DNA of 64,000 nucleotides from Heliocidaris erythrogramma. Lineage: Eukaryota > Echinodermata > Echinoidea > Camarodonta > Echinometridae. Made by a program: the position numbers and the translations under genes. Below are positions 4,481-64,000 of this stretch, piece after piece (position 1 is the first letter of the stretch; each line of letters begins with the position of its first letter). A model generated the notes under the pieces. The model was not told the DNA's origin. It saw only the letters and a list, made by a program, of their open reading frames with translations, and made no database searches. The stretch lies in NCBI GenBank assembly GCA_025617745.1, contig CM046859.1:25719371-25783370 (forward strand). The letters run 5' to 3'.

Positions 4481-4625
4481 TACTGTAAAACCAGGAACTT
4501 TCGCGCGCATTTAATGTTCGCAAGTTTCACGAGTGGTACAGATTCGTAAGTTTCTTGCTGTGAAAATGGCCGTTGTTTCCAATTCACGAAAGTTTCATGT
4601 CGCAAACGTTTCTGGTTTTACAGTA
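4481..4625. mobile_element. MITE-like element with TACTGTAAAACCAG ends (copy 1)
   Basis: A 145-bp segment. The left end TACTGTAAAACCAGGAAC pairs with the right end GTTTCTGGTTTTACAGTA. The interior has recurring CGCAAGTTTC / GAAAGTTTC words. It is the same family as 18510-18713. Confidence 0.75.
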
Positions 4626-4978
4626 GTTTGAAAGCGGTTCAAGAAGCCTTTAGAAAATATGCGCTGATACAGTACATGAATGGCATTTCGCAGCAACCAA
4701 AAATACCAATGCACATCAATGACACTAGCATGCGTACTCAAGACACTACACTGATGCCATGGGAAGATCTATGTAGCGCTGTGAGAGGGGCATCATCTAC
4801 ACACCACGGCAACAGGGGAAACAAGAGAATCACACTGGAGGATGCTGGCATGCACGTGAGGGGTATTAATAAAATGGGAAAGACACTAGAGCAATGAAAT
4901 GAGGAGCAATTAAATCCTCTCAGCCATGATGGATCGACCAGCATTCACTGCCAATACCATTCATAATACATACCAGGC

Positions 4979-5405
4979 AAGGAGTGAAGAGAGGGGGGGG
5001 GGGTACATGTAAGAGGCAGGGAGGGGCATGATGAGTGAGATAAGAACTTAAAAGTGATAGAGGGGGAAGAGAGAGAGAGGGGGGAATAAGAATAGAGAGG
5101 AAGACAGAGGAAGACAGAGAAAGTGAGGAGGGGAAATGGAAGGAGAGTGAATGGAGAGGAGAGACAGGAGTCTAAGAGAGCAAGATGGATGTCAAGAGGG
5201 AATATCAAAGACAGAAAAGGGAAAGGGTGATGAAGTGAGGGAGAGAGAGAGAAAGGGGGTGGCAAAATGAAAGAAAAAGAGCCTGAGAGGGAGAGGGCAA
5301 GACAGAACTGGAGATGTCAAACAGAAGAGAGAGAGAAAGAGAATGAAGAGAGAGAAAGAGAAAGAAGGGGGAGATGAAAGAGAGAGAGAGGGGGGAGGGG
5401 GACCA
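4979..5405. repeat. Purine-rich GA low-complexity tract
   Basis: The + strand is almost entirely A and G, dominated by GAGAGA and GGGG runs. The long - strand open frames rich in Ser, Leu, Pro and Phe in this interval are by-products of this composition. Confidence 0.9.
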
Positions 5406-8400
5406 ATAGATCACAGGGAACCGAGAGAAGAGCAGATGTATCCCTTTCCTCATCCCCTGCGTCAGTTATGCCTTTTCATCTTACTCTGTAAACTGATATA
5501 GCATCGGCTTCTGGTTACTGTGAGTGCTCAGCCTATAAGTGCTCATAGACTGCCTAAAGCCTGACGACTTAAAAACCACATGGTTCTGAGGTTTAGTAAG
5601 AAGCAAGGAGACAGAGGCCAAAAGATGGGATATGACAAGATTGCGAGAGATGCTTCTCTCTGCCATGATACCACCAGTTAACTTATGCATAGATGTCAAT
5701 ACACAACATGGGAGAATGGTCGTCCCAGTGGTACTCTGAGATTTGCTGTAGTGTAGATATGAAAGATAGAGGAGCCAAAGATGGGAGATGGTCAAAAATA
5801 TATGATTTTTCTTTGTCATGATGTTGGCATTTACAGTGAAATGTTCATCTGTACAGAGAAAATCCAGAGAGAAAAAGTTCACTTGTGTTACATGATAATG
5901 AAAAACCAGAAATATATTTGCCAATTTTGCCAGAGGTTGAGATTATGCCAAGAAATATCTTATTCATAACATGGAGCTTTTGCCATTTCGTAATTTTTTT
6001 AAAACTAAAAACGGCTAGAGATAACAAAGGCAAAAGTTCATGTGGCAAAAGTTTGTAGCTTTACTGTAAAACAAAGTAGGAGACTGGATGGTACACGAAT
6101 GCAGGCATGTTTTTTTTTTTTACTATGGAGAAGCATGAAACAAGAGATGTACATGATCCTAGCCCTATTCACACTTATCTATAACTTGTGTTGCCAAAGA
6201 ACGTATTTCGAGCCAAATCACAAAGAATATACAACAAATACCGTTTATATAACTTTAGTCTGAAATTCCATTTAGAATTCTAAAACAAGAACTTAAGGAA
6301 TTTTACAATAAGTTTGATATTTCATTACAATACTTAAAATTACAACAACACTTCAAAAATAATCATAATATAATCTTCACACAGATATCATACTTTTAAG
6401 TGTGAATGGGACTGGTATTAAAGTGCACATGTTACAGAGGAAGTAAGGGCGATGGTAGGATGAGACAGGACCTAAAGAGAAGGATAACAATTAATAGCTT
6501 CCTGAATACTTGTAATATCAAACAGCTTAGCTGCCCATGTGTTGGATATCAAGAGCTTTGATGCAGAAAGTCACCATAAGGTCAAGGCGCAAAACAGCCA
6601 TTATTTTATTCACACTTCACACCTCTCTAACTCCCGAAACCAAGAACTTGAAGTTCAGGGAGAGTCTACGAATTTAATGGCATCATCATAAACTTCATTT
6701 CGCATGGAACAGACAGAGTGGAAAATTGACATCTATGTGGTGCTTGTGCGTACTTTTAATGTGAGAGAACTGATGACGAGAGGCTGTCTATCAAGCTGCT
6801 TGATTGAATTGTACCAGTTTGACTTGAATGTTCAGACGAGACTTCAGGTATTAGAATAATGCAATAAAGGAGAGGGAGAGAGCCAATATGTGAGGTAAAC
6901 ATTCCCTCTGCCTCTCACCGTCAGCCCCCCTCCCCAAGCATGAAAGGTTTACTTTTGACAAGAGGAGAATCTATGACTCACTGCCTATTAAGAGCTCTCT
7001 CTGACCCCCTGACCCCCCCCCCCCCTCCTCTTTCTCTTGTCTCTAGAATATTATTGGGTATGTTTCTGAGGAGACTTCACGTTAACAACATTTATTATTC
7101 ATACTAATTCTCTAACTTTGTTTTCTTTTGAGAATGATCTCATAGGTATCGATCAAAATCAATAAAAGGAATTAACTGAATCAATTTGAATAGCTATTGG
7201 AGATGAAAGAAGAGAGGATAGGGAGGGGGAAATGTCTAGCTTGAATTATAAGTCGGGAGGGAGATACCTTTAATGAAAGACAGTCAGTATATGAGCTCTT
7301 AGAAGTCCAGAATCTTTGGATTTCAATGAACACTTGAAAACATCTGTGCCGAATGCATCCAATATGCAGTAAGCGCACGCACACTCCTGCGCACAGGCTT
7401 TTGTGCTATTTTCGGGGAAGGGATTGGAGGGTGGGTTATGCTTTGTGATGAATATGAAAGAATGATTCACCAATAGAATATACTTTGTGGAGATGGGACA
7501 TCAATGCTGTTTCATTGTAAATCTTGTTACAGATGTTGACTCATAAAGTGTGACCACATACATGTAACTATAAAAGGAATGACATCATCTCCATCTTTAC
7601 CAAAACAAAAACAAGAAAGAAAGTGTTTGCTAAAGCCAACTTATCTTTCTCAAACAGATATTTCTCTCTTTTCTAATATTGTATGTTATACAGTATACAT
7701 TCATCCCTTCAAATGTCGATTCGCTACATTAGATTAAGGACAAAAGTACTTAAAGCAACCTCAATCTAAATAGACGATTGAGTAAATTGGGTATAAAATA
7801 TCCGCAATATAACATTCTCAGTCATAATAATCTCTGAATTCAATATAACAATGGTGGTTGATTACATAATCAATCATTCAGATTTCAATCCATCATTCAG
7901 ACTTCTTTAATTTGATTCTTGTTAATTAGAATGATTTATTCATCATATCTGAAGGTGAATCAAGCAGGGATATTTATTTAGTACAAAATAATGGATATGA
8001 GGAACACGGTAAATATTTCTACAGTGAATCATCAAACACATCTACTCTACCAATTAAGTTATTTTTGCAAATAGAACATGCAGAGCATGGTCCATTAGGC
8101 GCATCATTCACATATATATAGCTAGCGAGGAAGAGGCGATGAGAGACAGTCTGCGAAAGGTTTGGATCTTCTCTTTCTCATTCCGTGGGATTCACTCAAT
8201 GTCTTTCCCATTCCCCCCAGGCAACGGAGCTGACAAGAAACCGAATCCTGCAAATTAATAATCCAAATTCCGCTATTCACGGACAGCTGTAGATGCGTTC
8301 CCTCCATTGGGAGCGGGTTGTCCCATTATCATGACTGCCATGCCCCTTGTCTATTGAATGCACATCATCGTCTCATCTTCGCACTGAATTGGATATCAAG

Positions 8401-10784
8401 ATGAATTGACATTTTTATTTACAGATGTTCAACTATTTTGGGTTGTTTTTTAAGTTTAACAAGGCACTACTGTCAGTACTTCTACTCAAGTTTTGTTATG
8501 GAGTGTGTAATGAATTGTTTGCAAGATATATTGATAATGATAAGATTTGCTTTGATTCTGCTTTTGCATTTACAACTGGTTTGCACATAAACAAATTTTC
8601 AGTACAAAGCCTTTGAAATCTATCTTTACTGATTATCCCACAAATTTCACATTTGGTATAATAGATTCAAATTACTCTGATAATGAAAATCATCTGGCTC
8701 TGGATGAATAGGTGGTGCATGTATAATGTGAACTAATACAATTCTGTAGTATCAAAGCTTACATGAAGGTTACATACAAACAATCAGCATTCCTAAGACT
8801 ACAAACATAAATCTGTATAAGTGGGACTACATGGTTTCTCCTTGGCTACCAATCCTCAAGCAATATATTGTGACCTCTCAAGTAAAATAACATTGTAAAT
8901 TGGTCATCACAGTTCAAAGACACTCCTCCCCAAAGGTCTGGTCCTTCATTAAGCCTTCTTGGGTCCCGAACAACTGTTTTCTGAGGTCACTTGGAGCTGA
9001 CCAAAGAACCCAAACGTCCTTCAATTCATGGCTGGCTAGACTTCCTTGGCTGGACCACCAATTGTTGACTGGTCAATGAAAACTTTAATGGCTACTAATC
9101 AAGAACATTTAAAAGTCAGTTCTAAATAAACAACACCTAGAATTTGATAGTAACTAAGATATATTGATGAATTCAATTTATTTTGGGGGATTCGTGTAGG
9201 CCTACCTGATGTAGTTGTATAGTCCTATATATATACATGTAAATACAGATATACCATTTTTGTCTATCACTGAAATAATTCCTTTGGTTAAACTTTATGT
9301 CCAGTCTTATACCCCCACACAAATCCAACTATTTTTTTTTTTTTGCATTTATTTGGCCTTTTTATTGTCAACGAAATAGTTAATGTGATGATTGAAAAGC
9401 AAATCACCTGTAATAATCTTCCAGATTGAAGGACACAGGACTACCACAAAAAGAATCAAAGAAAGATATTAACATTAAGAATGACTCAATAGTGCACTGC
9501 GTGACTCACATACTATAAATCTCTATACTGTACACTTGATGGGGATATCCTTGTCAATTCAAATATGTACATAAGATCTACAAAGAAAGATTTACAAGTA
9601 AAAAATAGGATTATTGTGACAACAAAAAGTTGTGTGATATATAATAAAATCTTATAAGAATCTTACATTTTTGCCTTTACCAGTTTCATTTAAATGGCCA
9701 TAACACACTTTTTCATCATATTACACCCTTCTGGCTCTATTAAAGCAGATGATATGACCCAAGGAACTCAAACAAATCACCAACATTCGGTCAGAGAGTC
9801 TCCCAGAGACCAAGCTCCTTTGGACATTAAATGGTGATTAACCTTATGTTGAATATTAGGAGCCACTGGAATTAATTTTTGCTCTCTGGCTCCAATACAT
9901 CACCACCACTCAAACAATCTTTTGAGGTGGAGGCTAGAAGTCTGCCTGCTTTGTTGAATTTAACGATCAGACGTTGTTAAGCAAAGATATTCAAATTCAA
10001 GGGCAGATTGGGTCTGATCTTTTCAACCAATAAAAGTGAAGGTTGTACCCATTTTTCTGTCAAGTTCAATTCAAAGACCCCTTGTTTTTCTTTCTTTTAC
10101 TATGCATACAAGTTATAAGATATTTAAAAAGCATTCCTGAAAATTTCAAACAATCACCTAACAATATCAACACATTTGCCCCAAAATAGAGCCTAAATGT
10201 AAGTTTTCTCAACTGCTACAAATATTTTTCTCAGGTTTCAACCCCCTCCCAACATTTCCTCTTGTTTTTATTAAGGATGATTTTCTTTTTACATACTTTA
10301 GGCCTACTGATCTATTTCTAGGTGTATCTTTATGGACAATGATAGCATTATTTCTTGAATCACCAAATTTTCAAAGATTCTGTCTAAACCCTGACAGGAG
10401 TAGGGTTCATGTAGATGTTTAGTTGTTGCAGCTGGGTTTCTCAGCATTAAACTTGGCCCATTAATCATAACAATAATCATCCAAAATAAAAAATATCAAA
10501 CAACTCCATTTTATGCTCTGCTTGTCCACAACAGAGGTCATTCTCGCTTGTCCACAACAGAGGCCATTCTCGCAAGTCTATCCCATTTCCAAAACACGTC
10601 AGTGTGGCCTTCCCAGACCAAAAGCCTAACAGCCATTGTGATAAAAGCTTTATCTGACCAAGAAGGTCAAAGGCCACATACAAAGGCTAGATACATTGAG
10701 GCATATGGATGTAGCCTTTGGATCGTTCCTATCCCTTCCTACATTATATTGCATGCTACATTGAGATTTTATTAGTTGGTCTGT
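5406..10784. other. AT-rich noncoding DNA
   Basis: No recognisable gene. It holds poly(T) and poly(C) runs (about 6110, 7012), a GC-richer island at about 8110-8340, and the 26-bp duplication near 10520. The open frames present are scattered and lack coding character. Confidence 0.6.
10520..10571. repeat. 26-bp tandem duplication
   Basis: GCTTGTCCACAACAGAGG with its following CATTCTC is present at 10520 and 10546, differing at one base. Confidence 0.85.
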
Positions 10785-41219: not shown

Positions 41220-42911
41220 CACTGTTGGTCATAATGGTAGCATAATGTTTTTTCTACCTTTCGTACACTATTGACAACAATGCGAGTCATTTTTTTTTGC
41301 AAAATAAAGCTTATATCTTCACGGATTTTTATTGATAAATCTGTTCTCAACATATGAAATAAAAAATATAAGACAAAAATTAATTCATACAAACTTTATA
41401 CACTGGTTTAAACCACTTTTGACAAACACAATCATCCAGACCTTGGATTCCTTGATAAAATGTATCGTTTTTGGTAAATGTTTAACCATGATAAGTTTAT
41501 CGTGAAAAATAAAATCTTGGGATCTTTTGATGATTGAAGGGAAGTGTTCCTCTTTTTAATCTTGTTGGGTCACTTAGTACCTTGTATGGCCACCTCTGGC
41601 ACGCACCAGTGCCTCCCCACGCTGTGGCATACTGTCCACAAGATTGCTGATGGTGTTCAAGGGCAGTGCATCCCACTCTTCGGTCAGTGTCTGGGTTAAC
41701 TCCTGCACATTTTGAGGATGATTGTTTCTCTCATTGATGGCACGGCCCAATGCATCCCAGGCGTACTCAATGGGGGTTCATGTCGGGGGAACTGGCAGGC
41801 CAAGGCATCTGCTGCACGTCCTCTGCGTCAAGGAATTTCCTCACCAGGCGTGCCCTATGTGATCGAGCGTTGTCGTCTTGGAGCTGAAAGTTATTGCCAT
41901 ATACTCTTCTCGCGTATGGAAGACAATGGCGTTCCAGGATATTGCGGTACACGACGGCGTTGACGTTTCCTTCAGGTGCAGCCAATGGCGTTTTTCCGCC
42001 ATAATGTATTCCGGCCCATACCATCACCGAGCCTCCACCTGCTTGATTGGTTTCCTGGAAACAGTCATTACGGAGGTTCTCGCCCCGCAATCGTCGAACC
42101 CTCTGCCTCCCATCGGTGCGGTCAAGGATGTACCGGCTTTCATCAGTGAAGATTACATGGCGCCAGTGACCAAGCTGCCATCTCCTGTGCCTCCTAGCCC
42201 ACAGGAGTCGAGCAACCCGGTGGCGAACAGTGAGACGTGGAACCTTGGTCATTCGCCGAGCTCTGTAGCCATGTTGGACAAGTCTCCTGTTTACGGTTTT
42301 CCGTGAAACGTTCACTCCGAAGTGCCTCCTCCACAAGTGGCAAAGACGACTCGCTGGCATTCTCCGGTTCCTAAGGCACATGTTCAGCAGTTGACGGTCA
42401 TCCCGTGCGGAGGTTCTTCGTGGTCGACCTGTAGATCTCTCTGTACTCAAAGTACCCGCCTCTCGATGTCTTCTGAGGATGCGGCACACACAACTATGCG
42501 ATAGTCCAAGAATATCTGCAATCTGGGCCTGTGTCCGTCCATTCCGTCGGAGTGCAAGGACCCTCTGACGAATTGCAAGTGCCGTTTGGCGAGGCATAGT
42601 GTAAGGAATCAGTGTACCAAATTTTGTAGGAATTCATCAAGCTAACTCTGAAAACGGGCTGTTAACACACTTCGGCTTTCTGCACGAAATGGACGGCAAA
42701 ACAACAGCAGAAAGGAGGCTCTGCCCAGCACCAAACAATAAAATAGGCCACGTTATGGAATGTTTCACTTGACCGATTTTTACCTCGACAATACAAAATC
42801 ATTATGTAATCAATGAACCTGGTCAATATTATCTATTTAGGCTTTTAAATATGATTAATTCAACGGATGACTATGAAAATACAAATTATGCTAACATTAT
42901 GACCAACAGTG
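41220..42911 (-). mobile_element. Tc1/mariner-superfamily DNA transposon (DD34E), near full length
   Basis: The element is 1,692 bp. Its imperfect terminal inverted repeats of about 27 bp begin CACTGTTGGTCATAATG at both ends, with one mismatch at the next base (G on the left, T on the right). It is flanked by TA on each side (41218-41219 and 42912-42913), the target duplication expected for Tc1 elements. It carries one transposase gene on the - strand. The intact ends and single coding lesion suggest a fairly recent insertion. Confidence 0.92.
41574..42597 (-). pseudogene. Tc1-family transposase with a single frameshift
   Basis: The open frame from ATG (42597) runs 276 residues and stops at TGA just after the SPDMNP motif. 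The next frame continues the family's typical C-terminus without interruption to TAA at 41574-41576, so one extra C in a run of five (about 41776-41780, + strand G run) explains the break. The whole reading is 1,024 bases, one more than a 340-residue protein needs. Visible parts are an N-terminal helix-turn-helix (residues about 5-45), the GRPR hook-like motif (57-60), a second HTH (about 70-110), catalytic D152 in FTDES, D242 in QDDNARSH, the GGGSVMVWAGI core motif, and a Glu 35 positions after D242 in the shifted frame (DD34E). The protein would cut and paste the element at TA sites. As read, the copy lacks its catalytic Glu and is presumably inactive unless the extra C is a sequencing error. 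Confidence 0.9.
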
Positions 42912-50758: not shown

Positions 50759-53700
50759 ATGGCGTCTGTTGCTAGCTGCCTTGGATTCACATCCGTGTTC
50801 CTGTTTATTGCGCTGACAGTGGTTTCTGTTCACCAAAGTAAGTATTAAGGAACTTAAATTGTAAATATATTAACTCTTCTTGCATGGGTTCATTTATTAC
50901 AGACGTGTTTGTTCTGATATTACTAAGAATTAACGCCCAAATTGTATAACTTTACTACAGTCCCATATCATTTGTAATTTGTATTGCAAGTACTTTAGCT
51001 CTATCAGTATCACTTTTAAATTGTATCAGTATCATCTTCTACTAGGCCTACTACTAGTACTACTTTCTACTAGAGGAAGGAGGGGAATAAGATGATGAAG
51101 GAGAAGAAGGATAAAAAAAAAAGAAGAAGACTAAGAGTAAAGAGGAAGTAGAACTACATGTAGAAGGGGGGAAAAAGAAGGAAGAGGTCACACCACGAAT
51201 AGTGGTCATATTCACTCATAGCTACATTCCTATACTTCGTGTGTATAATGTAGGCAGTCATACACCTCATCTTTTTAAAACACCACTGCACAAAAGTCAC
51301 CAATATTCACTCAAAATCGGCATTTAATTTTCAAAAACCGACCCCAAAATATCCAAGAAATACAATAAATTCAACTCACCAATGTTGGAAAAGATATTTT
51401 CAAAAATCAAATCCGTAATTTACTGTTGATTCTCGCGAAACGAGCTATCGGAGTCATTGTGTACATTTCCTGGTCGCCGCGGGCGCCGACATCTCCCCCA
51501 AAGAGTTTTGTCCTCAAAAATTCGGTCTCTATGGCGTACACGGAAAAGTTCCGATTTTCTGTGTGCGCGATCGTAAAGATCGATGTGCGCTTGCGATCCC
51601 GAGTTTCTTCGTGGACAAAAATTGTATTGGCCGATTTTAGTCTAAGACATCGGCAGTTTGTAAACAACACGCGATCGCGAAACAAATCGGCGGGGATTTC
51701 TCCGGTTTTGGACAAGATTTTGACTTTGGATTTTGCTGAAAATATAAAAAGTTCTTCCTAACGGCCATTTGAGGTAGGAGTGAGATTTTTAAGGGCTGAA
51801 TTTGAAAGCAAGTATTTAAAATATTTATCTTATTTTTTCCCCCATACCTTTAGTACATGCGACAGAAAATACCAACTATTTTACAGAAATGTACCCGGGA
51901 GTGGTCATATTGACCACTACGAATACAAAATGCAAAAATAGTTGGTATTTTCTGTCGCGTGTAGTAAAGGTATGGGGGGAAAATAAGATAAATATTTTAA
52001 ATACTTGCTTTCAAATTCAGCCCTTAAAAATCTCACTCCTACCTCAAATGGCCGTTAGAAAGAACTTTTGATATTTTCAGCAAAATCCAAAGTCAAAATC
52101 TTGTCCAAAACCGGAGAAATCCCCGCCGATTTGTTTCGCGATCGCGTGTTGTTTACATACTGCCGATGTCTTAGACTAAAATCGGCCAATAAAATTTTTG
52201 TCCACGAAGAAACTCGGGATCGCAAGCGCACATCGATCTTTACGATCGCGCACACAGAAAATCGAGACTTTCCGTGTATGCCACATAGGGACCGAATTTT
52301 TAAGGACAAAACTCTTTTGGGGAGATGTCAGCGCCCGCGGCGACCAGGAAATGTACACAATGACTCCGATAGCTCGTTTCGCGAGAATCAACAGTAAATT
52401 ACGGATTTGATTTTTGGAAATATCTTTTCCAACATCAGTGAGTTGAATTTATTGTATTTCTTGGATATTTAGTGGTCGGTTTTTGTAAATTAAATGCCGA
52501 TTTTGAGTGAATGTTTGTGACTTTTGTGCAGTGGTGTTTTAAAAAGTTGAGGTGTATGACTGCCTACATTATACACACGAAGTATAGGAATGTAGCTATG
52601 AGTGGAAGAGGTGGCAGAAGGGAAGCATCACACCACGAATAGTGGTCATATTGACCACTACGAATACAAAATGCAAAAATAGTTCGTATTTTCTGTCGCG
52701 TGTAGTAAAGGTATGGGGGGAAAATAAGATAAATATTTTAAATACCTTACTTTCAAATTCCGCCCTTAAAAATCTCACTCCTACCGTTAGGAAGAACTTT
52801 TGATATTTTCAGCAAAATCCAAAGTCAAAATCTTGTCCAAAACCGGAGAAATCCCCGCCGATTTGTTTCGCGATCGCGTGTTGTTTACATATTGCCGATG
52901 TCTTAGACTAAAATCGGCCAATAAAATTTTTGTCCACGAAGAAACTCGGGATCGCAAGCGCACATCGATCTTTACGATCGCGCACACAGAAAATCGGGAC
53001 TTTCCGTGTATGCCACATAGGGACCGAATTTTTAAGGACAAAACTCTTTTGGGGAGATGTCAGCGCCCGCGGCGACCAGGAAATGTACACAATGACTCCG
53101 ATAGCTCGTTTCGCGAGAATCAACAGTAAATTACGGATTTGATTTTTGGAAATATCTTTTCCAACATCGGTGAGTTGAATTTATTGTATTTCTTGGATAT
53201 TTTGTGGTTGGTTTTTGAAAATTAAATGCCGATTTTGAGTGAATGTTTGTGACTTTTGTGCAGTGGTGTTTTAAAAAGTTGAGGTGTATGACTGCCTAAA
53301 TTATACACACGAAGTATAGGAATGTAGCTACGAGTGGGAAGAATAAGATTAAGAAAAGGAAGAGGATGAGGAGAAGATGGAAGAAGAAGTGGAAAAAAAG
53401 CTTAAGATATCAGTGATCTGATAGATATATCATCAGCATTATCGTGGAATAGGTCACCAGTCCATTCACTGCCGTTCATTTCATCAATGCGGGAGACAGC
53501 ATTCCACTCCCATAGACATAACACGTAAGTGTGTGCGTACACACTGAATGAGCAGAGACCTATTCCACGATATAAACCATATCATCTATGAGTATGAGCA
53601 CTTGAGTTTTTATCCTTCAAATGCAATTACACATATTGTTACAAAATGGTTGATTAAGTAAGAATGTATCTTGTTTCTCTTTTATCAAATCTTTAATTAA

Positions 53701-56700
53701 GTTCTTATTCTAAATTTCCCTTGTCTTTAATTTGTAGCTGGAGCTGTGAGTGAAGAAACACTAGACTCGGACTCCCACACTTTAAATGTTGCTTCAGAAA
53801 GCAAAGAAGAACTTGTTTCTCCAACATCACCTGTATCTACTCAAGATGATGATGATGGATCAAACAGCACAGAAAACTTGGGAGTGAAAGAGACTGAGCA
53901 CCAATCATCACTTCCGAGATACAGGCAAACATTGTTGCTCTATCATCTGAAGAGAAGTACACATTCACCAGTCTGCATTCTCTTTTCAGAGAATGGTAAG
54001 TAGCATACATATTTCAAATCCAATTATAAAGGAAAAATATGCCTATATACAAAAAGTGTTTATTACATGAAAATGTTCCGGATATAATGTCATCATAATC
54101 TGAAATCTATTTCATTCAATTATTAAAATTCTTGAGATCTGAATGTAGAAGATATTTGTTATTCATTTGCTTATGTATATTAGGTATGTTATTTTTCACC
54201 ATGAGTTTTGAGTTTTGACTGGATGTCATTTTCTTCAAGTATGTTTGAATAGCAAACATTACTTAATTTGATGAGATTGGAAATGAACAAACTTCTTTGT
54301 AACTTGCGTAATGACTTGAAACCTCACTTTATTTGGTCAAAAGTATATTTTTATGTGTTTCTTTGATTCTCTCAGATTCAGAATTTGAACTTGAGGAAAA
54401 GTTGTCAAAGCTATGGACCAAGATTTCAACCTATTCCTTATTTCAGACATGGAAAATGGGAGTGTATGATGTGGTGTTTGGGGTAAGTTATTCATAGGAG
54501 AGGGGGGGGGGGGGGGGGGGTGGACCAGCCATTTGCACTGTTAAGCATCTTTCTGTACAACCTTGTAGTTCCTGTGTAATGAGTTGAATGCTTATCACAA
54601 ATTACTTGACGAATGATATTTGATATTTTGTTAATAAATCTAATACTAAGACAATTTGTTGATCACACATGAGCGTGTAGCACAAACATCTATAGGAGTT
54701 CAAGAGATGCATATGTAACAAAAAAAATTTTTTCCATTTGTGTCGCCAACAAGTAGATATTTCTGTATGATCCCTTAATACTGGTGTCTAGTTTTCAGTT
54801 TTCAACATCTTCAGGGCCCCAGAGTTTGATTCTTTGTGACACTTTGAGAAAGCCTTGATAAATTTTCTCATCAAGCAACAAGGTTCTCAGATCTTCCTGT
54901 GATGTACGGTGAGATTTTTTAACATCCATGAATGAAATATACCAAACTGTTATGCAATGCTCTTGGAATAGGAATACAATAATCTACCCTGGATTAACTT
55001 TACCTTCTCAGACATGACGGTGATCATAATGTTTGTATTCTTTCCTCATCTTTTTGCTTCAGCCGTTGAGAGGTTTCTCTATACCAGACATTAAACCTTT
55101 CTTGAGATGCTATGTAGGAACAGCTGAACCAGAAGACTACTCCGGTAGACCAAGTCTTCAAAGGCTTCTCCAGTGGTTCAAAATGCTGGTGAGAGATATT
55201 CACCTGTATATTAGCACCCTTTCCATTAAAGATTACATGGGGACCAATCATTGTTTTGCTCTGTATATATGGAGTTTATGCTGGTATACATATACTGTAT
55301 TAAATTATCATCTATAAAGTTTACTTTTAAGATATCTGACAGGAAAAACGAAAAAAGTTTTTTTTTAAATCATACAGGGGAGCAAACACTTGCATCAATG
55401 TAAAAAAAAAGGGATGCAAGTTTAAACATATCTTATTTTTAGAAAATATGCAGGGATGCCACTTTTCAGACAAAAGTAGGAATTCCTACTTTTTCAACAT
55501 ATTTTTAGCCATAGAAAACCACTTTTTATGTACACAAGGGCCCATTCTAGATGATTTTTCCTACTATTTTATCAATTCTAAGTGGCATCCCTGAATATGT
55601 AACCTGCAAAATTCATAGATGGATAAATAGAATTGATAGAATAATTGCATTTCACTCAATTGAACATGGCCTTGACCTGGCATTGGTGTGAAAATTCAAA
55701 CACTCTATACATCGACTTGAAAATTCCGACAAACTTTCTTTATTAATCCAATCTCAGGGTCACAGGTATCGTAATCGAATAGCAGAGGCTGATTTGGATT
55801 CTTTGAGGAAGGCTGTCTCTGATGACAGTAAACTGACTGTCCTTGCTTTTCCTGGAGTAGAACAACACTTTGAGATTGAATGGATGCTGCTAGAGGTAAG
55901 GGTACTGTGAGATATGTTATTACTAATAGGAGTTTCTGATTGTCTTCAAATTCATTGATCACATAAATAAAACATGCTACAATCCTGAATCTATAGAAGT
56001 AAAATATGACTTATAAAGATACACAGTAGAAGCGGTATATGCCCACAGACAGGGTCTAAGACTGTTTTCCACAGCATACCTTAGGTGGAGTCGGCTACAA
56101 AGAAGTTTTTGAAACAGAAAGCCTCAGTTTGTTATGTTGAAAAAGAAATCATAGACATTAATTTTTTTTTTAACTGTAGTTTCAGTGTATATATTCGGTA
56201 TAAAAGTTTATCTGCCATGGAAATAAAGAGTTTCATCACTCAACAAACTATTAAGTGACATCTTTGTGATTTTTCTTTGTGTTGCAGTTCAAGTCGTCTC
56301 AACAAGATGATCTCCAACTCTTTGTGGTTCACCCAGGCTCGGTGAATGAGAGCTCACTGCAACACAAGTTTAACATCAAAGTAGAACCAACTATACTAGC
56401 TCTCAAGAAAGGAGGTTAGGACTTGTCAGTAGTCCAGCTTGCTGGCCCACCTTTTCAGAGTGTATTATCACAAAGACTTCAGCTGAAATGGATATGAGGC
56501 AGATATTTGGGCATATCCATCTCAGGTCCATATGTCACATATATATTACATGTGAGATTGACCACTTTTTTTCTTGAATAGGTTTTTAAAGACTTTACAA
56601 GTTCTGTTTTTATTTCAAGAGATATTTCTTTTGATATAAAACACAAAATGTCCATGTAGTTTGAGCACCAACACTCTCTTCCTGATGTCTTTGAACCTGT

Positions 56701-61519: not shown

Positions 61520-63563
61520 TTAAGTAGATGCTTGCTTCTGTTTAAGTATTTCTAGGTATTGTCCTGCCGACCATGTCATCCTTAAGCATTGAGCATTTTG
61601 CTTCATGTTTTCTTTTAAAATATACCGACTAACCAGTGTCGATACTTTCTCTACTTCTTTAGTTCCGCGTAAGCATTTCTGTGCTAAAGCTGTGTTCATT
61701 TTCTCAAGAGTCCTAACATCATACGCCATTCTTTGACGTCCATACACTTCAACTTTTGCCCACAGTGTCCGATTAAAGTGCTCATAGAGCAGGGCATCTC
61801 CGTGATTCCACTCGTAAAGTTCTTTGAAAGTTGTCTCGGACATCTTGTTAACTTGTGACTCTGTCCGGGCATTAGAGGAGAAATAAGTCACATCGTTAAA
61901 GTCCCAGCACATTAAATCTTTCAAGAGCACTAATGATTCCTGCAGATGTTCCAATATTAAAACTAAATCAAAGTCTGCGTCTAATTCTGCAATTTTATGT
62001 TTTATAGCATATTCATTGCTGAAGAGTTGTTTAGCCAAACCAAGGTCATAGAGGGTTGGATTGAGGGCACTGTTTACATCGATAGGTTCTTGCATAGGGT
62101 AATACTGAGGAGGATTGTTGGCAAAGTCCGCTAAGTCAACCTTGAAAATGTCCTCAAAACCGTAGAAGGAATATTGACTCTCAAACTGTGTTGATGGGTG
62201 ACGAATGATTGTGATGTAAGCTGCATCGTCATACATGATACCGGCCATTTCTGATAAGAAAATGAGAAACCAAAATATATTTTGATAATAATTACGATTC
62301 CAGTAAGAATACAGTATAATGTACATATATCTGCCACAGTATATATCAAAATACTTTTACGATTAAGGATGTATGAATAAATCATATGATTAAGGGAACA
62401 ACTTAGTGTTCCATGTGCATAATTTTTGTCCTGAATATAGAAGAAAATAAATGTTTTCAATTTTAAATCAGGATGGATTATCATTACAGTGATTGTGTTA
62501 GGAGTATTTAGCCATATTGAAACTTGTCTTGATTGCTTGTAGCATATTTTTGGATTGGTTATCTTCCTGCATGCTTTACGTTCCTAGTACAACAAAATTT
62601 TTGAAGAAATGCTGTGAGATTTTCCTGATTGAGGTAACAAAATAGCCCTGTGCATTTTGAAATGAAAAATTTGTGGGGTATTTTATGCCATCTATTGCAA
62701 TACTGAAAAGGCCAAATCAGGCACAGGTTGTGAACAGTCACAAGAATAGTCTGATTATGTTCTGACTTGTAGCAGATGTAGTGTTCTTTCTGCAAGTGCC
62801 TTGCTACTGATTGTAATTCATTTTGAACATCGACTTGGAATTTTATGACAATTTTAAATTATTTTAATAATTTTCAAAGACTCAATTTCCCTTTTTTTTC
62901 TTCAGTTTCTGCATGTAGTATTTTTATTGTATAGTATGTGAATGGGTGGAAACCTATCTGTAAGTCAAAGTCCATGTAACATATAAATACAACTCACTTG
63001 GTCGATAATATCTTGCATGGTTTGCAAGCATGTTGTATTTTCCAGTAGGAGATTGAATGATTGATGTCTCTTGAAATAAGGAGGGTGCTCCAAAGTGTAC
63101 ACCCTCTTTGGGGAGAGCAAAAGTTAGCCCATTTGTGTCACCATACCGATACACAATGCTCTGAACAGTTGAACCCCCGGTCTTGTGTGTTTTCAGAAAG
63201 AGGAGGTTTTTTCTTGGTGCGCATGTCGAATCCTCACTGTTGAGACGTTCACTGGAGTTATAAAGAGATGCAGTCTTTACTGTCTTGTGCTTATTGAGAG
63301 CAGACTGTACATTATTCAAGTATGAATCTCTCGTTACATTAACATATACAGGGTACCCTTTTATTAGATTGTGAGGTGCTTGTGCAGAGGACTTCAGCTT
63401 TGAAGTTCTTTCAACAGATACCCCACTGATGAGGCTTTCCACATTGGCACCAATTTTTCCATGGCGATTCTTTAAAGTAGCTGATGTTTTCCCCTTTTCA
63501 CTTGATTGCTGTGCTGTCTTTGTGACATCAGGAGTCATGTGACCTTCTTTTGGCCTGATATGC
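61520..63563 (-). CDS. Galactose-3-O-sulfotransferase family protein (GAL3ST), two visible exons, 5' partial
   Basis: Exon A is 63563-62998 and exon B 62250-61520, joined at a GTGAGT donor and a TTATCAG acceptor with a split Lys codon. They give about 431 residues ending in TAA. Counting from the Met at 63538, the 5'-phosphosulfate (PAPS) loop LKTHKTGGST lies at 115-124 and the 3'-phosphate site IIRHPSTQFES at about 195-205, followed by the family-typical FYGFEDIF region. NHARYYRP just before the junction is also family-like. Members transfer sulfate from PAPS to C3 of galactose on glycolipids or glycans in the Golgi lumen. Residues 1-110 are a hydrophilic stem with possible N-glycosylation sites (NVT, NSS) and no membrane anchor. 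An acceptor-like TGCAG just upstream of 63563 implies that the anchor exon lies beyond the window. The length fits the family's catalytic portion. An AATAAA lies about 10 bases after the stop (61510-61505, - strand). I cannot say which paralogue it is or what its acceptor sugar is. Confidence 0.88.
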
Positions 63564-64000
63564 CTGCATGTAGAATGTAAATGAAGGCAAAGATTTGAGA
63601 AAAAATGGAGGGATGAATCAGAGAATATATAATAAAATTGGGTTTCATATTATGCTGGTGTAGTGGTCCTAACTCTTTATGCTTTCATCATACCGAAAAT
63701 TTCCTTTTTTATTAATGCTTTACAGACCACCCTACAGCATTTCGGGTGTGGTCCATGTATGTTTTAGGCCCCCCCCCCCCCCGAAACCTAATCACTGTAA
63801 AGGTCACGTGTGCCTTATATTCTTACTCTAAGGGCAAAGTAGTTCCTCGGTTTATTTTTCTTAAATTGTTTTAGAGATTATATTAAATGTATATATGAAG
63901 TTAATAGTATATTCTCATGGAAATTATACATGCGTTTTTTATATATTCACCAATAAGTAACAATAACGTGAATGCTTTTAACGAGGAAGGATAATAAAAC
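63564..64000. other. Probable intron of the sulfotransferase gene
   Basis: AT-rich sequence with a C run near 63772. It contains no exon I can recognise on the - strand, so the preceding exon of the sulfotransferase should lie beyond the window. Confidence 0.45.

Follow-up and report, generated by a model that had tools for sequence, protein, structure and literature searches.

The P-element-derived MITEs of Anopheles gambiae are non-coding, occur in high copy number, leave 8-bp target duplications, are fed by the P transposase and match an identified P element in their 5' and 3' sequence (PMC1562414). In Atlantic cod, hAT-derived MITEs at inversion breakpoints are likewise non-coding elements with terminal inverted repeats and lie in tandem and inverted arrays with repeat units of 167-169 bp (PMC12368964). 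The target duplications of the P element and of hobo are both 8 bp long (PMC3276498), palindromic targets and self-insertion have been described (PMC3276498, PMC4744444), and self-insertion or nesting of P elements and MITEs is already known (PMC4744444, PMC12368964). Galileo, a member of the P superfamily in Drosophila, comprises diverse non-autonomous copies including chimeric copies with unlike ends (PMC3573991).

Here we describe a group of three ~0.7-kb copies in the sea urchin Heliocidaris erythrogramma, located in a 64,000-bp stretch of DNA (the window) and compared with the whole genome of 1.064 Gb in 26 contigs, which was searched for all genome-wide counts. The copies resemble the systems above in their non-coding body, 8-bp duplications, high copy number and nested arrangement, but they also differ from them. 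The connection to P is a candidate one here, whereas the Anopheles elements share sequence with a P element; the passages compared on the cod arrays mention no palindrome hotspot; Galileo stands apart by its long terminal inverted repeats and a duplication length of 7 bp; and in contrast to P and hobo, the preferred palindrome sits in the ends of the elements themselves and of a sister family. An element's own subterminal palindrome as preferred target was not met in the accessible text of the five reports compared (PMC3573991, PMC1562414, PMC12368964, PMC3276498, PMC4744444). Among the papers listed, titles and opening lines of abstracts gave no description of the T1/T2 family introduced below; subscription papers and repeat databases lay outside this search. 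The kind of element is already known, and it is the family and its hotspot that are worth recording.

The three copies in the host intron

In the host gene model exon 2 begins at 53738 and the reading frame stays open through this exon; no Pfam family was matched by the parts of the gene that were compared. A first, sequence-only reading of the window had placed the copies in an intron, which agrees with this predicted structure (ATG at 50759, donor GTAAGT at 50838). Elsewhere in the window, Pfam revealed a 288-codon open frame with Tc1/mariner-type transposase domains (41770-42633, minus strand; PF01498, PF13358) and the exons of a galactose-3-O-sulfotransferase-like gene (61523-62356 and 62957-63649, minus strand; PF06990). 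Just past copy C and still within this intron, inspection by eye showed a short inverted repeat at 53447-53575 (CGTGGAATAGGTC ... GACCTATTCCACG), perhaps another small element.

The sequence-only reading had also reported three copies of ~0.7 kb, and these are indeed present within 51189-53336, copy A on the minus strand and copies B and C on the plus strand (Table 1). It had taken them for a single palindromic triple unit with CACACCACGAATAGTGG as common outer repeat, and neither part of this description held. Scripted pairing of left and right ends via the 8-bp target duplication resolved three separate insertions of two subtypes, each with its own duplication; the two duplicates agree fully around A and around B and differ by one mismatch around C. 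The sequence CACACCACGAATAGTGG, found at 51189 and 52629, forms the left end of B and of C but not that of A, which differs, and the "short spacer" between the facing copies turned out to be copy B's own end. The proposal of a mobile unit with terminal repeats, many genomic copies and target duplications is supported, the terminal repeats being more evident in T1 than in T2, though not as one element bounded by CACACCACGAATAGTGG. The target duplications sought around the copies are 8 bp long and are present at all three copies in the window as well as at genomic loci.

Table 1. Positions of the host intron, the three copies and their target duplications in the window.
Feature	Position	Strand	Basis or remark
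Host intron	50838..53737	+	Gene model: ATG 50759, donor GTAAGT, acceptor TTGTAG; no transcript evidence
Copy B, left target duplication GAAGAGGT	51181..51188	.	Left/right-end pairing
Copy B (T2), left terminal piece CACACCACGAATAGTGGTCATATT	51189..51212	+	Left part of palindrome at 51201-51212
Copy A, target duplication GTCATATT, first copy, within B	51205..51212	.	Left/right-end pairing
Copy A (T1), 691 bp, nested within copy B	51213..51903	-	Pairing, alignment, empty-site test
Copy A, target duplication GTCATATT, second copy	51904..51911	.	Left/right-end pairing
Copy B (T2), remainder, GACCACTACG to ...CTATGAGTG	51912..52604	+	Self-alignment, end pairing
Copy B, right target duplication GAAGAGGT	52605..52612	.	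Left/right-end pairing
Copy C, left target duplication GGAAGCAT	52621..52628	.	Left/right-end pairing
Copy C (T2), 708 bp, inserted separately	52629..53336	+	Self-alignment, pairing, multiple alignment
Copy C, intact subterminal palindrome AGTGGTCATATTGACCACT, hotspot unoccupied	52641..52659	+	Pattern search
Copy C, right target duplication GGAAGAAT, one mismatch	53337..53344	.	Left/right-end pairing

Copy B spans 51189-52604 in total and is interrupted by copy A, whose duplication GTCATATT (reading AATATGAC on A's own strand) sits within the palindrome AGTGGTCATATTGACCACT near the end of B. When copy A was removed in an empty-site test, the T2 end was rebuilt. As the duplication of A lies inside B, A inserted after B was already in place, and its reversed position in the end of B accounts for the facing arrangement and for the hairpin discussed below. 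The inverted repeat of A and B aligned over 51213-52604 at 94.3% identity in the self-alignment, and multiple alignment with gap columns excluded gave 94.2% for A and B, 93.8% for A and C and 98.3% for B and C. The insertion sites of B and C are 24 bp apart in a purine-rich stretch.

We are confident that the locus is a nest of three separate insertions from one high-copy, non-coding, MITE-like DNA transposon family, presumably mobilised by a cut-and-paste transposase supplied in trans that makes an 8-bp stagger. The T2 copies B and C inserted separately into the host intron, and the T1 copy A jumped in reverse into the subterminal palindrome of B. That the three copies adjoin and that two of them face each other might instead be expected of a composite or foldback element, or of a local duplication, that arose or moved as a whole triple unit, or of an assembly artefact. 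Against this, each copy has its own 8-bp duplication, that of A lying inside B. Copy A agrees with the T1 consensus at 99.7% but with B at only 94.2%, so that its nearer relatives are T1 copies in other parts of the genome, and the genome search with the full query from the window returned T1 copies standing singly at many places. An assembly artefact and a single-copy status had both been considered in the sequence-only reading; duplications on all three copies are unexpected from assembly error, and the unit is multi-copy in the genome search, which rules out the latter. An origin as a whole triple unit or by misassembly is thus very unlikely.

Helitrons, Penelope-like elements and retrozymes are not known to have a fixed 8-bp duplication, and retrozymes carry a hammerhead ribozyme. 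Units of these kinds form tandem and inverted groups, and the copies studied here are also clustered in both orientations, but their constant 8-bp duplications and fixed ends, together with an Rfam scan of 51000-53600 that gave no ribozyme even with E allowed up to 1, leave such an origin of the duplication-bounded copies with a negligible probability.

The long RNA duplex proposed from the sequence is borne out by the predicted fold of 51189-52604, a single long hairpin of ~1.4 kb with -1177 kcal/mol (a value given with no shuffled comparison), and this hairpin could yield double-stranded RNA. Such a hairpin in a modelled intron would be in line with a functional hairpin-RNA locus that feeds small interfering RNAs and is kept by selection. 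We consider this improbable, as nesting at the hotspot accounts for the arrangement and similar facing nests exist elsewhere. Furthermore, the search with Rfam over 51000-53600 gave just three matches, all to microRNA families and far below the gathering scores, as is possible for any long inverted repeat. In the preferred reading, the long intronic hairpin would be a by-product of nesting.

The T1/T2 family and its sister family D

The left end of T1 is CACTCCCGGGTACATT and that of T2 is CACACCACGAATAG (longer form CACACCACGAATAGTGGTCATATTGACC), so that the ends begin with CACTC or CACAC, and both subtypes have the right end ...GTAGCTATGAGTG in common. Among 62 left ends in 20 genomic loci and the window, 39 could be paired with a right end through their 8-bp duplication, the three window copies included (38 exact, one with a mismatch; one of the 39 paired rows reuses a right end). 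No duplication partner was found within the stretch searched for the other 23 of the 62, nor for 13 of 32 left ends in a consecutive run on contig 1; these unpaired ends are older, truncated or cut-off copies. Exact left ends number 2,508 for T1 and 1,851 for T2 genome-wide, with 0 hits for the reversed-pattern control in each case, and T1 copies by themselves make up no less than 0.16% of the genome.

Paired T1 copies are mostly 690-692 bp long within a unit of ~0.7 kb, and 12 of 27 duplication-bounded T1 copies are identical to the majority consensus, a share not to be read as a genome average, since most of the copies were chosen among the best matches. The family is both large and young. 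T1 ends also lie in clusters: of the first 100 on contig 1, 57 are within 3 kb of another, against an expectation of 1.9. When the two ends of T1 were compared by eye in the alignment, 16 of the outermost 22 positions agreed; the ends of T2 have little in common beyond CAC, which makes T2 on its own a poor inverted-repeat element. The 130-codon open frame of the unit matched 0 Pfam families, and the view that the unit has no recognised transposase of its own is thereby confirmed. With a constant 8-bp duplication, a transposase-less body and a high copy number of uniform length, the family resembles a MITE in these respects.

Two further loci deserve mention. At 7590-7790 of locus L012, a stretch with a TATA-box-like sequence, a start codon and a splice donor contains 44-46 bp that resemble the right part of the unit; it is possible that this is a promoter relic or a source gene. 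Two T1 copies at C1:5930366 and C1:5989935 (loci L058 and L059) have identical flanks and the same duplication TCGGGAAG. At ~13 kb from each copy lies a long open frame with a hAT-domain match, and the two are apparently one locus duplicated as a segment ~59 kb apart.

A sister family, D, was found in loci L011, L012, L016, L019 and L020. Its core is ~806-811 bp where not enlarged, its ends are CACATCAGCAAGCAATGGTCATATTGACCATT on the left and ...CTATGAGTG on the right with 8-bp duplications, and 2,166 exact left ends are present genome-wide (0 for the reversed-pattern control). The first 36 bases of D align with the first 35 of T2 at 81%, both starting with CACA followed by the palindrome around TGGTCATATTGACCA, and T2 looks like a T1 body joined to a D-type left end. 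The palindrome arms change in step, with AGTGGTC/GACCACT in T2 and AATGGTC/GACCATT in D. These matched changes hint at maintenance of the palindrome as such, perhaps as a site to which the transposase itself binds.

Locus L020 contains a 3.6-kb element bounded by D ends and an 8-bp duplication (6057-9660, minus), the interior of which consists mostly of tandem repeats; it was rejected as an autonomous candidate, no long open frame being seen. An exon-like open stretch in its right part ends in a GTAAGT donor and is possibly captured coding sequence; Pfam gave no match for this stretch.

Candidate transposases

A full-length autonomous relative was not found, and the P-type and hAT candidates are known from domain matches in the genome. 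The P-type transposase domain PF21787 has 29 genome matches, nine of which score equally, and eight of these nine lie in an 869-codon open frame, apparently a young and intact P-element family in this genome. In the 1.5 kb upstream of one P-type exon, an apparent half THAP domain on its own exon was recognised by eye; the same 1.5 kb resembles T1, T2 and D no more than expected by chance, but it stops short of the element end and so does not bear on shared ends.

The target sites are of limited help in the choice between both enzymes, as the 8-bp duplication fits P and hAT alike. The 27 distinct targets show no clear P or hAT motif: compared with the P motif GTCCGGAC they reach a mean of 4.85 of 14 matches, versus 4.14 at random positions and 4.96 at another offset. 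We assume, at roughly even chances, that the mobilising enzyme belongs to the P superfamily, which we hold to be more likely than hAT because of the set of equal-scoring, apparently intact P-type genes.

The terminal consensus of hAT elements is YARNG, and the ends CACTC/CACAC do not fit it. A hAT transposase acting on the same nest would nevertheless be consistent with the 76 genome matches of the hAT dimerisation domain PF05699, some of them in long open frames, with the mild enrichment of T at position 2 and A at position 7 of the target, and with the duplication of hobo, which is also 8 bp (PMC3276498). In view of the misfit of the ends and of the P-type gene set described above, we regard hAT as a possible rather than a probable source of the enzyme.

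Nesting and the subterminal palindrome

Nested insertions that reuse the same inner sites also occur elsewhere, for example in loci L009, L016, L019 and L022. A first count of self-nesting (18/39) was set aside, as the loci had been picked by a query starting inside the hotspot and neighbouring copies had been counted too. An exact duplication flanks 32 of the 40 top-scoring T1 copies, and 8 of the 32 are located in T1/T2, 4 in D and 20 elsewhere; the query for this set began inside the hotspot and favoured copies like A, and after these were dropped 5 of 22 were in T1/T2 and 3 in D. The least biased sample is the run of 32 consecutive T1 left ends on contig 1, in which 19 have a duplication partner, with 3 in D, 0 in T1/T2 and 16 elsewhere (two rows were assigned to D over the own family, the D alignment being longer). 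If D is assumed to make up 0.2 to 1% of the genome, 3 of 19 in D corresponds to a binomial tail of 8e-6 to 9e-4. Nesting in related elements is above chance, but the least biased set concerns D and not the T family itself, and strict self-nesting is weaker than the first count suggested.

Genome-wide, 135 of the 2,508 T1 left ends are preceded by RWYATRWY. Among 100 of these 135 that were listed, 41 have GTCATATT and 38 AATATGAC, with no bias in orientation; extrapolated from these first 100 places, ~107 of the 2,508 T1 insertions target one of the two sequences. The intact palindrome ARTGGTCATATTGACCAYT occurs 4,163 times, a number near the combined 4,017 left ends of T2 and D. This corresponds to ~2.6 insertions per 100 sites or ~10,900 times the genome average per base, provided that every GTCATATT/AATATGAC target lies in a palindrome and bearing in mind that copies in shared arrays are non-independent events.

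On contig 1 up to 15.68 Mb the palindrome is kept in 34 of 44 T2 and 50 of 56 D left ends. Of the 16 ends without it, three have a T1 and two a D left end placed precisely at the hotspot, while two T2 ends have a reversed T1 left end within 760 bp, like in the window; the remaining nine are without explanation. Insertions seem to favour the palindrome in other parts of the genome as well, and the hotspot seems to be common to T1/T2 and D. Locus L010 contains a tandem of T2 and T1 (4512-5927) in which the 8 bp AATATGAC recur on either side of the pair and at the junction of its members, the result of two insertions at one target. A similarly repeated 8 bp was found in the part examined of loci L056 and L060, and L067 is without such a pattern.

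Taken together, we tentatively suggest that the subterminal palindrome may be a maintained landing pad that steers T1 (and D) into the ends of T2 and D at ~10,000 times the rate of average DNA per site, giving nests in both orientations with long-hairpin loci as a by-product. The palindrome might attract the transposition complex either through an enzyme that binds the element ends or by suiting a two-fold-symmetric target step. Repeated jumps into a short palindrome carried by the elements would be one route to long, near-perfect hairpins in animal introns. With many identical copies and apparently intact P-type genes at hand, the target choice of a possibly active animal DNA transposon becomes directly testable. 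Furthermore, if it is true that the palindrome is the transposase's own binding site, this would provide a concrete mechanism for self-nesting.
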